A DNA stretch of 36,771 nt from an uncultured Bacilli bacterium. GTDB taxonomy: Bacteria; Bacillota_I; Bacilli_A; RF39; UBA660. The notes beneath the pieces are model-generated. The model was not told the DNA's origin and made no database searches. It worked only from the letters and a program-made list of their open reading frames with translations. Where the stretch lies: contig CALVIU010000009.1 in the NCBI GenBank assembly GCA_944331835.1, forward strand, positions 1 to 36,771, in the 5' to 3' direction. Positions 3,957-34,867 of the stretch are shown one piece after another (the first letter of the stretch is position 1; each line of letters begins with the position of its first letter). The position numbers were made by a program, and so were the translations under genes.

Positions 3957-6422
3957 ATGTATTGTCAAAATTGTGGAAGCCAAATAGATGAAAAAGTTGA
4001 TTTTTGCCCACAATGTGGGGCAAAGTCGCATCAAAATAAAAGATTATCTTTAGATAAGAAAAAGATATTATTAATTGCTTTAATTATAGTTGTAATAGTT
4101 GTAGTTATAATATTATTGGTTAGAATATTTTCTGATGATTCTACTTCAAATGAAGAATATAAGAATTATGGGACCGATAGTTATAATGAAGAGTTGTCAT
4201 ATACTTATAGTGATGATGGTACTCTTAAATTTATTGATGGTACCTTTAGTGATATTACAGTTAATTCTAGTCAAGATGCATTAGAAGCTTTAAATGAATT
4301 AAAGAATGAAGTAGGCTTTAATGATGTATTTGAAGAATTAGAATTAGATTATCAAGAAACGAGTGAAGATTTAACTTATTATCGTTTTAATCAAATGTAT
4401 GAAGATATTCCTGTTTTAAATCAAAATGTAATTGTTAGTGTAGATAATGATGGTAATGTATTAAGTTTTAGTGGCTATTTTGTAGATGATATAGGTATTG
4501 ATACTACTCCAGCTTTGAATTTGGAACAAGTGGAAGAGATAATTAATAATAATCTTGGTGAAAATCCCAATATAGTTAGTAATGATTTATATATATGGGA
4601 TGATTATGATAATCAGTATTTAGTTTATGTTGCTATAGGTTATTCTGATACAAAAGTAGTTCAATTAATTATTGATGCTAATAGTGGTGAAATATTAGCA
4701 GAAACAAGTATTTTGGAAAATGCTCAAGTTTATTCTTATACCGGTGTTGGAATGGATGATAAAACTTATACAATAAATTTGGAAGAAGAATACGATTATT
4801 TATTGTTAAAAAATAGATATAGCTTTTTTGATTCATCGCGAAATATATCTGTTACAGATTGTAGGTATTTAGATCGTACGGGATCTGTTTTAGCTAGTTT
4901 TATTACTGGAGCTTCTCCAATTACGGTAGATATAGTTGATGGAGATATTTTTATGGCGTATGAAAATGAAGAGTTTATAAGAAGCGCTGTAACAGCAATG
5001 GCAAATTATGAACATATCTATGATTATTATTTAGATGTATTGGGAAGAAATTCCTTTGATAATAAAGGAAGTAAAATAATAATAAATTTAGGCGTTAATG
5101 ATAAAATGTTTTCAGGAGAAGATTTAAATAATGCTAGTTGGCTACCTAGTCCTTTTAATCAAATGGTAATTGGTGATTATGAAGGAAAGTCATTTGCTGC
5201 ATCATTAGATGTTTTAGCTCATGAATTTACGCATGGAGTTGTATCATATACAGCTGATTTTGCAAATACTCCTAAAGAAGAAGATATAAATAAAGCCTTT
5301 GAATCAGGGGCACTTAATGAAGCTTATTCTGATATTTTAGGATCTTTAATTGAAGGTGAAAATTGGACAATTGCGGAGAATAATGAAACTTTGAGAAATG
5401 CTATTAATCCTGAAAGTTATGGAAATCCTAGTGTTAAAAATGGAGAATATTATTACCCAGATGGGTATTTAACCGATGATTTTACTTTGGAAGATTTTTT
5501 GGAAAGAAATAATTTAGAATATGTCGTTGATTATGATAATGGAGGGATACATCAAAATGCTAATGTTGTCTTCCATGCGGCATACTTAATGTATGAATCA
5601 GGAGCTTTTAGTAGTAAAGAGGAAATGGCTAAAGTTTGGTATAATTCTTTGTTTTTACTATCTTCATATTCTAACTTTGAGGATTGTGCTTTGGCCGTTA
5701 TTAAAACTGCTAAAAATATGGGGCTAAGTGATACGGCAGTTGCTAAAATTACGCAAGCTTTTATTGATACCAATATGTTAGAAGATGGTTCTTATACTGT
5801 TTCTGGTGAAGTTAGAAGTGGTGAGGAATTATTAGAAAATATAACCGTAGAAGTTTATACTTATTATGAAGATGAATTTGTAATAAGTGCTGTAACTGAT
5901 GGCGATGGTAGATATGAATTGGAATTAGAAACTGGCATATATAAAGTCAAAATCACTAATGAGGAGTTTGAAGAATTTACTGGGGCTTTAATTGTTAGGG
6001 GAGATACCGAATATAATATAGTTTTAGCAAGTAAGGGAGCTATTCCTGGAAATGTTGTAAATATGTGTAATACTGATAATTGTTATTCTTTTAAAATTTA
6101 TTATATGGAAGGTTCTGGAGATAATGATATAGATGAAAAAGTAGACACTTATATTTTAAATGCTGGTACTATTTTTGATAGTGAATCATTAGTAAATAAT
6201 TTGAATGAAACTGTTGGTAGTGAAATGTTTAGGACTGATGGGGTATCATTTTATATTAGTATGGCTGGTATTGAGATGGAAGTAGCTTGGTATTATAAAG
6301 ATACAAATACTAAATTTGATTGGAATAAGCCAATTAATAGTGATGTTGAAATAGAAATGAAAGTGCTGAATGGCCTTTTGGATAATGATTTTTTTCAAGA
6401 TATTAATGATTATTTTAATTGA
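3957..6422 (+). CDS. Membrane-anchored M4 (thermolysin-family) metallopeptidase with N-terminal zinc ribbon
   Basis: The 821-residue protein begins with a cytoplasmic-type zinc ribbon (C3, C6, C17, C20) and one transmembrane helix at about 33-56. A FTP/PepSY-like propeptide region spans about 100-260. The M4 catalytic domain follows, with HEFTH at 422-426 (zinc ligands H422 and H426, catalytic E423). The third ligand is E455 in GALNEAYSD, and the probable transition-state His is H532 in NGGIHQNAN. After the protease, about 610-690 is a carboxypeptidase-regulatory/Cna-B-like beta sandwich, and a further beta-rich domain runs to the end. With the N-terminus inside, the protease faces outward. 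Typical M4 enzymes are secreted with a cleavable signal; the zinc ribbon plus TM anchor is unusual and matches the neighbours. SD is AAAGGGG. Confidence 0.88.
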   Translation: MYCQNCGSQIDEKVDFCPQCGAKSHQNKRLSLDKKKILLIALIIVVIVVVIILLVRIFSDDSTSNEEYKNYGTDSYNEELSYTYSDDGTLKFIDGTFSDITVNSSQDALEALNELKNEVGFNDVFEELELDYQETSEDLTYYRFNQMYEDIPVLNQNVIVSVDNDGNVLSFSGYFVDDIGIDTTPALNLEQVEEIINNNLGENPNIVSNDLYIWDDYDNQYLVYVAIGYSDTKVVQLIIDANSGEILAETSILENAQVYSYTGVGMDDKTYTINLEEEYDYLLLKNRYSFFDSSRNISVTDCRYLDRTGSVLASFITGASPITVDIVDGDIFMAYENEEFIRSAVTAMANYEHIYDYYLDVLGRNSFDNKGSKIIINLGVNDKMFSGEDLNNASWLPSPFNQMVIGDYEGKSFAASLDVLAHEFTHGVVSYTADFANTPKEEDINKAFESGALNEAYSDILGSLIEGENWTIAENNETLRNAINPESYGNPSVKNGEYYYPDGYLTDDFTLEDFLERNNLEYVVDYDNGGIHQNANVVFHAAYLMYESGAFSSKEEMAKVWYNSLFLLSSYSNFEDCALAVIKTAKNMGLSDTAVAKITQAFIDTNMLEDGSYTVSGEVRSGEELLENITVEVYTYYEDEFVISAVTDGDGRYELELETGIYKVKITNEEFEEFTGALIVRGDTEYNIVLASKGAIPGNVVNMCNTDNCYSFKIYYMEGSGDNDIDEKVDTYILNAGTIFDSESLVNNLNETVGSEMFRTDGVSFYISMAGIEMEVAWYYKDTNTKFDWNKPINSDVEIEMKVLNGLLDNDFFQDINDYFN

Positions 6423-6444
6423 TAAGAAAGGTTGATAGGTTAAG

Positions 6445-7290
6445 ATGAATAATAATTTAAATAATCAAAATAACAATCAAAACTTTGGTTATTATATAAA
6501 TGATAACCAAAACAATAATGTTCCAAAGAAAAGTAATAAAAAAGTTTTAATAATAGTTTTAGCTGTATTAATTGTAATTGTAGGAATTTTGGTATTTAAT
6601 AAATTTTTGGCTAATGAAAATAACAGTAATAATATGAGTAATAACTCTGAACAATTAGATAATCAAAATGGAAATGTTAATGATAGACCAGATGATAGTA
6701 ATAATAATCAAATAGATTCAACTGTTGATAATGTGGATAAGCCTTTTTTACTATATATAACAGATATACTTTATTTTTTAGATAAGGGTACAACTGTAAC
6801 TGGTAAAATTGAAAGAGGGAGTATTAATGTAGGTGATACTGTTTCTATTGTAGGTTTTGATCGTTCAAATATTAGTACTACTATTACACATATTAAAATG
6901 AATGGGAATTCTGCAGTTTCAGCCGAAGCTGGGGATGATGTTGAACTTAGTTTAGATAATGTTGATAAAGATGATTTGGTATCAGGTCAAGCTTTAATTC
7001 AACCTGGTTCTCTTGAATCTAGGAAAAAATTTACGGTTGATTTAAAATTGTTTGCTGGTATCAATGCTGATGAACTTTTTAGTAATAATAAATTACTAGT
7101 ATATATAGGTACTACTGATACAATGGGTACTTTAGAATTTGCTGATAACGTGGAAGTAGGAGAACCTATGCCTGTTACAATTACTTTGGATTCATCAGTT
7201 GTAATTGATACAGGAATAACAATTTTTATTAGAAATAATAATCATAATACTATTGCATATGGTGCTGTAACTTCTTTATTCGATGATTAA
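6445..7290 (+). CDS. Membrane-anchored protein with EF-Tu domain II/III-like beta barrels and no GTPase domain
   Basis: The 281-residue protein has an Asn-rich N-terminus, a TM helix at 33-52 and an Asn/Asp-rich linker. From about residue 98 it matches the order of EF-Tu domain II: KPFLLYITDILYFLDKGTTV then TGKIERGSINVGDTVSIVGF, then a segment ending SGQALIQPGS. In EF-Tu these read KPFLLPIEDVFSI...GTVVTGRVERG and RGQVLAKPGS. Domain III hallmarks follow: a TTDTMGTLEF segment like EF-Tu's TTDVTG, and a final IAYGAVTSLF like GAGVV. The G domain (P-loop, NKxD) is absent. The barrels would lie outside the membrane. Function is unknown; binding of a ligand or neighbour is possible. The gene follows the M4 protease by 22 bases, so it is probably co-transcribed. 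The similarity was read by eye. Confidence 0.72.
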   Translation: MNNNLNNQNNNQNFGYYINDNQNNNVPKKSNKKVLIIVLAVLIVIVGILVFNKFLANENNSNNMSNNSEQLDNQNGNVNDRPDDSNNNQIDSTVDNVDKPFLLYITDILYFLDKGTTVTGKIERGSINVGDTVSIVGFDRSNISTTITHIKMNGNSAVSAEAGDDVELSLDNVDKDDLVSGQALIQPGSLESRKKFTVDLKLFAGINADELFSNNKLLVYIGTTDTMGTLEFADNVEVGEPMPVTITLDSSVVIDTGITIFIRNNNHNTIAYGAVTSLFDD

Positions 7291-7298
7291 AATTTAAG

Positions 7299-7325
7299 TT
7301 GCTAATTAATTTTAGCAATTTTTTT
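7299..7325 (+). terminator. Rho-independent terminator after the EF-Tu-like gene
   Basis: Stem TTGCTAA (7299-7305) with TTAGCAA (7312-7318), loop of six, then a run of seven T. It closes the protease/EF-Tu-like unit. Confidence 0.75.
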
Positions 7326-7425
7326 GACTTAAAAAAGGAAATAGAGAATTTTTGGGGTATATAATTATGAAAGGAGGATTTTTATGTTTTGAATAAATTA
7401 CAAGTATATTAATTGAAGGGAGGAT

Positions 7426-9135
7426 TTGGTTATTAAAAAGATTATTTTGGTAGTATTTATTTTTATAGTGGGTATGATTAGTGTTAATGCTAAAACTGAT
7501 GATATTTATGCTGCTGAGAAGATTGATGGCATGTATATAAGAAAAATATCAAGTTCTGGAAAAGAAGTGAGTAAACAAGGAGGTTTTATTAGAAGAACTA
7601 GTGATAATAGCTTTGTTTATTGTGTAGAACCATTTGTCGATTTAATTAATTATTACACATATGATGTTTATAATAATAATCAAGCAAATTATTTAGAAAT
7701 TGATGAAAAAACATGGGAAAGAATATCCTTGATAGCATATTACGGTTATCAGTATGGTAATCACACTGAGGATTATTGGTATTATATTACCCAAGTAATG
7801 ATTTGGAGAACTGTTGATCCGGAGGCTAGTTTTTATTTTACTAACACTTTGGGAGGAGAAAATGATGAACGCTTATATGCTAAAGAAATTGAAGAGATTG
7901 AGAGTTTAGTTAGTAATCATTATGTTACTCCAGAATTTGATGAGATAGTTTTAAAAGAGGGAGAAACCAAGCGCTTTTCTGATAAAAACAATGTATTAAG
8001 TAATTATGTTGTTGTAGGTAATTCAAATGTAACAATTGAAGATAATGAATTAGTAGTTACTAAAGATACTATAGGAAATGAAGACATTATACTTAGAAAA
8101 GATAGCAATAATTTTTCTGATGTACCACTTGTATATATAAATCCTGATAGTCAAAAGGTTTTAGCTGTTGGTAATTTAGAACCTGTTAGTTGTAAGGTAA
8201 ATGTTAAAGTAACTGGTTACTCTTTAAAAATAATTAAAGTGGATGCATTAACTGGGGATGCCTTAAAAATGACTGGTATTAAATTTAATATATATGATGC
8301 CGATACCAATGAATTTATAATGGAAGTAATAACTGATGATAATGGAGAAATTATAATAGATAAACTTTTAAGTAAGGGAAATTATAAAATTAAGGAAGTT
8401 AATAATCAGACAATAGATGGTTATGAGATTAATGATGAAGAAATTTATTTTGAAATAACTGGAGAAGAAGATCTTGTTACTATTGAATTTCCTAATAATC
8501 CAGTTTTGGGAGCGATAAAAGTTTTAAAGACTAATGAAGATGGAAATGCTCTTGCCGGAGTAACCTTTGGGCTTTATCAAAGTGATGGCACTTTAGTAGA
8601 TATTGTTATTACTGATGAATTAGGTATTGCTTTATTTGAAAACTTGCAAGCTAGTACATATCAGTTAAAGGAACTGGCAACTCTTGATGGATATTTATTA
8701 GATGAGACTGTCCATGAAATAGAACTGAAATTAGAAAATAATAAGTTAGAAACTGTAACTATTAAACTAGTAAATTATCAACCTAAAGGAAGTTTAGAAA
8801 TAATCAAAGTAGATACAAATAATAATCCTTTACCAGAAACGGAATTTGTTTTATATGATAGTAATAGGAAAGAAATAAAAAAGACTAAGACTGACAGTGA
8901 AGGCAAAATTATAATTGATAATTTATTATTAGGGAAATATTATTTAGAAGAAATTACTCCAGCTGAAGGTTATCAATTATTAGATGATATTATCGAATTT
9001 GAAATTAATAATAATAAAGAAGTTATTACAATAACTGTTACTAATGAAAAAATAGATATCGATATTCCTGATACAGAGATTAGTATGAATATTGATGATT
9101 ATATCTTAGAAAAAAGGAAAAATTTACTAAAATAA
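7426..9135 (+). CDS. Surface adhesin: thioester (TQXA) domain plus three Cna-B repeats
   Basis: The protein is about 569 residues. A signal peptide (VIKKIILVVFIFIVGMISVNA) is followed by a thioester domain with Cys66 in FVYCVEP and Gln123 in the TQVMIW motif, the pair that forms the internal thioester in Gram-positive adhesins. Three Cna-B/SpaA-type repeats start near 265, 363 and 455, each with the Lys/Glu pattern of intramolecular isopeptide domains and a GxYxLxE-type strand. The end reads IDIPDTEISMNIDD and then a charged tail. PDTE recalls a sortase motif, but no membrane helix follows, so wall anchoring is doubtful. The start is uncertain: TTG at 7426 lies only 2 bases after GGGAGG, and an ATT at 7432 has normal spacing. 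No ATG fits. Confidence 0.82.
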   Translation: MVIKKIILVVFIFIVGMISVNAKTDDIYAAEKIDGMYIRKISSSGKEVSKQGGFIRRTSDNSFVYCVEPFVDLINYYTYDVYNNNQANYLEIDEKTWERISLIAYYGYQYGNHTEDYWYYITQVMIWRTVDPEASFYFTNTLGGENDERLYAKEIEEIESLVSNHYVTPEFDEIVLKEGETKRFSDKNNVLSNYVVVGNSNVTIEDNELVVTKDTIGNEDIILRKDSNNFSDVPLVYINPDSQKVLAVGNLEPVSCKVNVKVTGYSLKIIKVDALTGDALKMTGIKFNIYDADTNEFIMEVITDDNGEIIIDKLLSKGNYKIKEVNNQTIDGYEINDEEIYFEITGEEDLVTIEFPNNPVLGAIKVLKTNEDGNALAGVTFGLYQSDGTLVDIVITDELGIALFENLQASTYQLKELATLDGYLLDETVHEIELKLENNKLETVTIKLVNYQPKGSLEIIKVDTNNNPLPETEFVLYDSNRKEIKKTKTDSEGKIIIDNLLLGKYYLEEITPAEGYQLLDDIIEFEINNNKEVITITVTNEKIDIDIPDTEISMNIDDYILEKRKNLLK

Positions 9136-33154: not shown

Positions 33155-34765
33155 GTGAAACTTATGAATAGAATAAAAAATAATAAGTTATTATATTTTT
33201 TAGGAGTATTAATTGTAGGGGTTTTTATTGTGTTAATTGTTAGGTTTACTTATGCTTATTTAGGTGCAAGTATTAATGATGCTCAAGGAAATGTAACTAT
33301 TAATAGTGATGAGACTGATAGATTGGATTTTGAAATTGGAGATCCTTTATCAGTTGATGCAACTCCGACGACATTACCTGAGAATGGAACTAATTTAGTT
33401 GATACAACTACTGCTAAAGCAATTTTAACTGCTAATACTACTAATAATACAGCAAATTATTCTTATTGGGTATATTTTAATATTTCTAATAATACTTTTA
33501 CTTATTCTGATGGCTCAACACCTGAGATAATTCTTACAGTGACTGGTCCAGATGGAAATCCTGTTACTAATGTTGAAGGTCTTACTTATGGAACATATAA
33601 TGGAGTTGCAGGTTTTGATATTACTACAGAAAATGGTGTGTTTACTATTGCTAGTGATTATGCTATTGCTGTAAATTCAAATACTGAGCCTACAGAACAA
33701 ACTTGGAATTTTACTTTGACTTATTTGAATTTAGATTTTGATCAATCAGGAAATTACGGTAATAGTATGACTACAGAAATTATTATGACGAAAGAAGAAA
33801 ATATTCCGACGTTGGCAGATTTGTGTTCTGGAAAAACTTTAGCTGAATGCATAACAACAGAAGTATATACAGAAGATGGAGCAGAGGGAATATATTATCA
33901 CGACGGGGTAGGAAGTTATACGAATGCCGATCAAGAAGCAGGAGATAACTCATATAGATTTAGTGGAGCAAACCCAAATAATTATGTATGTTTTGGAAGC
34001 GATGAAGAAACATGTCCAGCAGAAAATCTATATCGTATAATTGGCGTATTTGACGATGATAAAGATAGTAATTATCAAATAAAATTAATAAAGGCTGATT
34101 ATACAACAAGTGCAATGTTAGGAACTGATGGAAGAGATTATTATGGTGCTTATTCAAGCAGTACATCAAATTATAAAGGAAGTATGGATACAAGTACAAT
34201 AGCAGGATATAGATGGAATTATGATACAAGTGTAAGTACGTATGGATCAAATAATTGGACAACAAGTGAATTTAATACAATAAATCTAAATACAAATTAT
34301 TGGAATTATTTAGGTGCAATATGGCAAAACTTAATAGTAGAAACAACTTGGCACCTAGGAGGAATGACATCATATAATAATACAGCAAAAGCATTTTATG
34401 ATGGAGAAAGAAATAATACAGGATATGGAAGTAATCCAACAACATATAGTGATGAAATAGGATTAATGTATCCAAGTGATTATGGATATGCAGCAAGTCC
34501 AGAAGCGTGGATAACAGATTTATATGATTATGAAAGTTCAGCAATAACATCAAACAATTGGATGTATATGGGGTTATATGAATGGACCATTACTCCGTTT
34601 TCGTCGCGCAGTGTCAGCGTGTTTTTTGTGTTCAACAGTGGCTACTTGAGCAGCAGCAACGCTTACCTCGGGAATGCCGCTAGACCTGTCTTTTATCTGA
34701 AATCTAATGTAGAATTTAATGGAGGAACAGGAACTTCAAGTGATCCATATCGCCTTGCGGTGTGA
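33155..34765 (+). CDS. Surface protein: TM anchor, TasA/camelysin-like domain, lectin-like C-terminal domain (candidate DGR target)
   Basis: The GTG start at 33155 follows AGGGTGAG; ATG 33164 is the alternative. The protein is about 536 residues. An N-terminal TM helix (LLYFLGVLIVGVFIVLIVRF) precedes TYAYLGASIND, the start of a Thr/Asn-rich beta sandwich like TasA/CalY proteins (to about residue 220). A long C-terminal domain has CFGSDEETC, NLYRIIGVFDDD, NNWMYMGLYEWTIT and RPVFYLKSNV, and ends GTGTSSDPYRLAV, like DUF6273/C-type-lectin-fold modules. Within that end (34591-34680) GC rises to 48/90 and A falls to 15/90. In the preceding 90 bases GC is 29/90 and A is 35/90. Many codons there end in C (GTC, AGC, AAC, TAC, CTC), as expected of a DGR variable region. 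No reverse transcriptase is in the window. Confidence 0.82.
   Translation: MKLMNRIKNNKLLYFLGVLIVGVFIVLIVRFTYAYLGASINDAQGNVTINSDETDRLDFEIGDPLSVDATPTTLPENGTNLVDTTTAKAILTANTTNNTANYSYWVYFNISNNTFTYSDGSTPEIILTVTGPDGNPVTNVEGLTYGTYNGVAGFDITTENGVFTIASDYAIAVNSNTEPTEQTWNFTLTYLNLDFDQSGNYGNSMTTEIIMTKEENIPTLADLCSGKTLAECITTEVYTEDGAEGIYYHDGVGSYTNADQEAGDNSYRFSGANPNNYVCFGSDEETCPAENLYRIIGVFDDDKDSNYQIKLIKADYTTSAMLGTDGRDYYGAYSSSTSNYKGSMDTSTIAGYRWNYDTSVSTYGSNNWTTSEFNTINLNTNYWNYLGAIWQNLIVETTWHLGGMTSYNNTAKAFYDGERNNTGYGSNPTTYSDEIGLMYPSDYGYAASPEAWITDLYDYESSAITSNNWMYMGLYEWTITPFSSRSVSVFFVFNSGYLSSSNAYLGNAARPVFYLKSNVEFNGGTGTSSDPYRLAV
34580..34700 (+). repeat. Candidate DGR variable region (VR)
   Basis: The segment from the EWTIT codons to the FYLKS codons is abruptly GC-rich and A-poor compared with the rest of the gene. 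Variable-looking codons match a pattern in which AAC or AAT codons of a template had A replaced. The truncated paralogue at 13743-14375 differs most at the same residues, between EWTIT and RPVFYL. The template repeat and reverse transcriptase must lie elsewhere if this is real. Confidence 0.55.
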
Positions 34766-34775
34766 GAACCTTTAA

Positions 34776-34809
34776 GCCTCCGCTGGCGGCTCTCAATCCG
34801 CCCGGAGGC
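34776..34809 (+). other. GC-rich hairpin just after the lectin-like gene
   Basis: GCCTCCG (34776-34782) pairs with CGGAGGC (34803-34809), and GGCGG (34785-34789) with CCGCC (34798-34802). This is a 12-pair stem with a CT bulge and an eight-base loop. No T-run follows, so it is a poor terminator. Stem-loops in this position mark DGR variable regions and assist template-directed homing. Confidence 0.7.
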
Positions 34810-34867
34810 CGCGAGTTATCAACTAAAAATTAAATTTACAATATAAAAATTATGAAAGGATGATATT

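Follow-up and report, generated by a model that had tools for sequence, protein, structure and literature searches.

The window analysed here, a stretch of 36,771 nucleotides forming contig C9 of an uncultured Bacilli genome (G000; 58 contigs totalling 1.25 Mb, with a completeness of 90.8%), raises the question of whether the 3′ part of one lectin-like gene is the variable region (VR) of a diversity-generating retroelement (DGR) encoded elsewhere in the genome. An initial annotation, made from the window alone, had proposed such a remote target with no reverse transcriptase (RT) or template repeat (TR) nearby; the window indeed carries neither, and both are present elsewhere in the genome. The related records used for comparison are MAGs of uncultured Bacilli, some of which come from rumen. 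The features under discussion are as follows.

33155 to 34765, forward strand: putative DGR target gene (536 aa; ORF with GTG start, AGGGTGA upstream)
33953 to 34762, forward strand: C-terminal target domain, common to 22 paralogous places in the genome
34592 to 34684, forward strand: VR of the TR3 class, with 20 A and 4 non-A mismatches against the template of the sister species G010 (94 nt)
34670 to 34684, forward strand: GGGAATGCCGCTAGA, the IMH-like 3′ terminus of the VR, at which TR/VR homology ends
34685 to 34762, forward strand: conserved coding tail from VR to stop, which sets the hairpin structure 77-78 nt past the VR in nearly all members
34763 to 34821, forward strand: outer inverted repeat TGAGAAC/GTTATCA, surrounding the hairpin, its first arm containing the stop codon
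34776 to 34809, forward strand: GC-rich target hairpin, GCCTCCG/CGGAGGC (7 bp) plus GGCGG/CCGCC (5 bp), 8-nt loop
13758 to 14369, forward strand: paralogous domain in the same window, not a target; no template match, no hairpin

The target protein starts with a hydrophobic segment (transmembrane or signal) that is read directly off the sequence, and by this segment it is probably secreted or membrane-anchored; the GTG start is kept at the same point in the G010 ortholog. Searches of the protein against Pfam and NCBIfam, and a sequence search of the PDB, gave no match. DUF6273 (PF19789), to which the gene had been assigned, was not detected by Pfam in the window protein and appeared only for the local target of a DGR operon on contig C32, with E 0.19. 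The AlphaFold2 model of the target domain (33953-34762) is of low confidence (pLDDT 57.9, pTM 0.65), and just three structures match it with Z of at least 2: the IgA peptidase of Thomasclavelia ramosa over residues 32-304, in its N-terminal region (Z 11.0, 14% identity; the top structural neighbour), 2y3c, a T. denticola DGR variable protein (Z 3.1 to this low-confidence model), and mannose-binding protein (Z 2.0). With Foldseek, only chance-level matches to the model were obtained past the IgA peptidase. The domain is plausibly C-type-lectin-like, a fold that the model supports weakly, and the target may have a lectin-like ligand-binding role. The model also suggests that the target domain and the T. 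ramosa IgA peptidase may have an N-terminal module in common.

The segment had been singled out by its base composition, and this stood up well to recounting: A drops from 34/90 at 34490-34579 to 17/90 at 34580-34669 (35 and 15 in the earlier count), and among all 36,771 bases the 90-base windows with a GC content of at least 48/90 start only at 34591-34603, in the VR, and at 34715-34745, in the hairpin. The candidate region is real but was drawn too wide, the VR being confined to 34592-34684. Mutation at template A had been proposed as the source of this composition, together with a GC-rich template. The former agrees with the data, in that A is low because the A of an A-rich template has been replaced; the latter does not, the G010 template having A at 36/94 bases and being not especially GC-rich.

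In the own genome, RVT_1 matched three places, C3, C32 and C40. The search for a DGR-type RT thereby succeeded outside the window: C32 and C3 each carry a DGR operon in which a DGR-type RT is accompanied by local targets, a TR and an Avd-like gene. Besides the target gene, the layout includes a pair of small ORFs, one of them Avd-like, as well as the RT and a non-coding A-rich repeat. The RT motifs are IGNMTSQ or IGNQSSQ, plus YMDD. Among solved structures, the C32 RT has its best relative in the group 8ub7-8ube, described as 'Reverse transcriptase' (E 1.9e-14), which we take to be the DGR RT of BPP-1. The Avd-like ORFs of both operons hit NCBIfam DivGenRetAVD at E 8e-12 and 2e-6, below the cut-off. 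TR1, directly behind the C32 RT, differs from its local VRs by 14 A and 0 non-A and by 11 A and 1 non-A mismatches, and TR2, ahead of the C3 RT, differs from its local VR by 17 A and 0 non-A mismatches; with these local pairs, and with the TR3 template of G010, A-biased templates do exist. The C40 match (G000:C40:4358-4930) was rejected as a DGR RT, as it is broken and retron-like, with QGAPTS, YSDD and an internal TAA. Within the C32 operon, an IS110-like transposase gene separates the upstream target gene from the Avd genes (G000:C32, L060, 13281-14618). Three species of the genus have C3-type RTs that are 100% identical (G000:C3:6990-8057, G006:C1:1169-2236 and G004:C34:1138-2205), which suggests that this DGR was recently transferred horizontally or that the bins have contigs in common.

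Neither TR1, with about 15 concordant non-A mismatches, nor TR2, rejected by template matching, is the template of the window VR. A template was predicted by writing A at the variable columns of five near-identical remote VRs of G000, the window VR among them, that form a third class (TR3), and the genus was then searched with this prediction. The best match, G010:C41:4317-4407, is 96% identical and lies directly behind an RT. Against this natural template the window VR is mismatched at 20/36 A but at 4/58 other positions (p=2e-7), and with the same template as reference the five paralogous VRs vary in 31/36 template-A columns versus 7/58 non-A columns (p=4e-13). The search for a matching repeat with A-biased mismatches, as the initial annotation had suggested, was successful in the sister species; the own assembly lacks such a repeat, only TR1 and TR2 being found in its 58 contigs, and four mismatches lie outside template A. 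No TR3 template was found in viral contigs. In G010, a remote VR differs from the TR of that genome by 18 A and 1 non-A mismatches.

The five VRs also record how they were written. Between paralogues, A columns differ by 57.5% and non-A columns by 3.9%, as compared with 13.7% in the upstream and 10.9% in the downstream flank; because the non-A columns differ so much less than the flanks (3.9% versus 11-14%), the VRs were evidently recopied from one template after gene divergence. At third codon positions the difference is 4.6% in the VR versus 20% in the flank, and under protein-level selection alone silent positions would not be conserved. Such a pattern is what remains when a single template is copied and its A positions are changed at random. 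The domain is found at 22 paralogous places, the window gene counted, and after sorting by template match, three belong to the TR1 class, six to the TR2 class (C3 and C16 with the same VR, four decayed or partial), and five to the TR3 class (C9, C11, C19, C23 and C5), while eight match no template. The TR2-class VR shared by G000:C3:5138-5644 and G000:C16:23090-23596 is accompanied by a common downstream flank and represents a recent duplication or copy.

Differences at the syntenic ortholog of the window gene (G010:C22, with the same neighbours on both sides) are likewise concentrated: the VR is 63% identical, versus 82% and 86% for the flanks (p=3e-4). The differences, which would have been spread evenly over the gene if no DGR were involved, thus lie at template-A sites among paralogues and in the VR rather than the flanks between orthologs. 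The G010:C22 VR belongs to the TR1 class, with 3 non-A mismatches to TR1 and 9 to the TR3 of G010 itself, and the alignment indicates that the VR of the window gene or of G010:C22 has been replaced since divergence. At the DGR locus, C32 is syntenic with G010:C41 (target, two small ORFs, RT, TR, small ORF, target, SNF2 helicase), and yet the two differ in template, TR1 versus TR3. The two genomes are mirror images, since G000 has its own TR1 and a TR3-class VR, and G010 its own TR3 and a TR1-class VR at the ortholog. A further genome, G012, combines a TR1 of its own with a TR3-class VR at a remote site, and no TR3 template was found in it. The DGR template repeat of three genomes is interrupted by an element at an identical site (GGCAAC/TTGAA): in L131 (G008:C43) at about 4975-8471, in L134 (G005:C17) with TR halves near C17:14277-14338 and 17870, and in L168 at about 200. 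The insert of G008 and L168 carries three consecutive tyrosine-recombinase ORFs (recombinase-in-trio-like), and the interruption in G005 is about 3.5 kb long with similar end sequences.

Behind the stop codon, the GC-rich stem-loop without a T-run described at first is confirmed as a stem of 7 plus 5 bp at 34776-34809, more stable than 199/200 shuffles (DNA fold, z -3.0). Across 16 sequences, 89% of the pair cells of the outer inverted repeat are paired, and the window copy has one mismatch. A covariance model, R1, built from 16 target hairpins, matches exactly 8 sites in the own genome, 8/8 behind genes with TR1- or TR3-class VRs, which are all such targets; it found the hairpin neither behind the eight unmatched paralogues nor elsewhere in this genome. 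In nearly every case in the genus the structure sits 77 nt (74-80) behind the VR. The inner stem shows a compensated double change in C19, and in G007 the stem is swapped for a different paired sequence; among the 16 closest hairpin sequences formal covariation is weak because the stems hardly vary. At G010:C8:5406-5467 (L187) the hairpin occurs with only the final codons of a target gene and with the same downstream flank as G000:C19, and is the remnant of a deleted target gene. By analogy with BPP-1, the hairpin may take part in homing. Its place right behind the stop codon would also suit a mere transcription terminator or dispersed repeat, which we regard as improbable given the missing T-run, the restriction to template-matched targets just described, and the paired changes in G007 and C19.

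Altogether, with RTs in the genome, A-biased templates and differences concentrated at template-A sites, the remote-target proposal is upheld, and the segment is very probably a VR acted on in trans. DGR RT and Avd, encoded far off in a C32-type operon, would make cDNA copies of the template RNA, with errors falling at A; this cDNA would pair at the IMH-like VR end, with the hairpin past the stop codon assisting, and would take the place of about 93 bp that code for the ligand-facing end of the secreted protein. As the C32 operon carries TR1, the last template to write the window VR would have been one of the TR3 class, either unassembled or since replaced there, and DGR activity on it is presumably recent rather than present. 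Ordinary diversifying selection or recombination among lectin-like paralogues could be expected in a large paralogous surface family, where selection is likely; we nevertheless consider a history without any DGR extremely improbable, as it is contradicted by the variation at template-A columns, by synonymous non-A sites more conserved than the flanks, and by an A-specific pattern that holds against an independent natural template.

Where the TR3 template went can be answered in two ways. The chances are about even that the window gene is orphaned, the TR3-class template of C32 having been overwritten by a TR1 allele and the two VRs local to it, so that the window VR and its four sister VRs are now frozen. 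Every genus genome with this DGR type carries one template copy, as judged from TR 3′ flank matches, which agrees with such an overwriting, as do the different templates at the syntenic C32 and G010:C41, the same state in G012, the reversed state of G010 at the ortholog, and the published precedent of Treponema denticola SP32 (PMC4891356). Less easily reconciled with it, the VRs are little decayed at non-A sites (3.9%) with open frames, and all five have G000-specific bases in common (34615 C, 34663 T); TR3 therefore existed recently in this lineage. That the target is still live, served by a second operon with a TR3-class template missing from the assembly, is a serious possibility that we rate somewhat short of even: the VRs appear recently homogenised, the assembly is incomplete and in many contigs, and repeats break assemblies, but no other genus genome clearly has two templates of this flank type, and G012 is also without TR3.

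Several of these properties have precedents. The TvpA DGR of T. denticola has one RT/TR set for up to seven scattered targets, and in strain SP32 the VR of a remote target fits the template of another strain and not its own (PMC4891356); remote targets and a VR fitting another genome's template are shared with the present case, which differs in having two operons, three template classes, five orphan-class targets and a reciprocal state at orthologous loci of two species. For Bordetella phage BPP-1, the effect of mutating the downstream inverted repeat has been examined (Guo et al. 2011, PMC3240598), and in the published phage set the stem is 7-10 bp, the loop a 4-nt GRNA and the spacing 4-34 bp (PMC3240598). 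A-specific VR replacement, an IMH-like 3′ end and a GC-rich inverted repeat behind the VR are common to BPP-1 and our case, whereas here the 12-bp stem comes in two blocks, with variable loops of 5-8 nt, about 91 nt past the VR, and the targets are chromosomal and remote. The DGRs of Thiohalocapsa PB-PSB1 also have trans-diversified targets and one locus whose VRs lack a matching template in the rest of the genome; in that bacterium, variants in which the locus has an intact DGR came to light in long reads (PMC10907252), whereas our case is known from assemblies. Cyanobacterial remote variable proteins (PMC7517822) are similarly dispersed lectin-like paralogues, some with and some without VR/TR homology; in our case the presence of a hairpin separates target from non-target paralogues for two template classes. 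Remote targets, many targets per template (PMC6642488) and template-less targets are thus all already published. The hairpin and its spacing are unusual, and the reciprocal template and target classes of two sister species go beyond the precedents found; among the papers listed when the literature was searched for DGRs of this lineage, none was relevant.

A DGR can thus be recognised from the 'fingerprint' of a lone target far from any RT, and paralogous VRs allow its template to be predicted and then located in sister species. Template class, target class and hairpin can be compared across the genus as a natural series, through which it becomes testable what marks remote targets and what becomes of them upon template change. 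We put forward, tentatively and as a rather unlikely possibility, that a single C32-type DGR locus in the genus swaps template alleles between lineages. If so, each swap would silence one subset of hairpin-marked targets and re-arm another, and the genome would hold a frozen library of old variants beside live ones.
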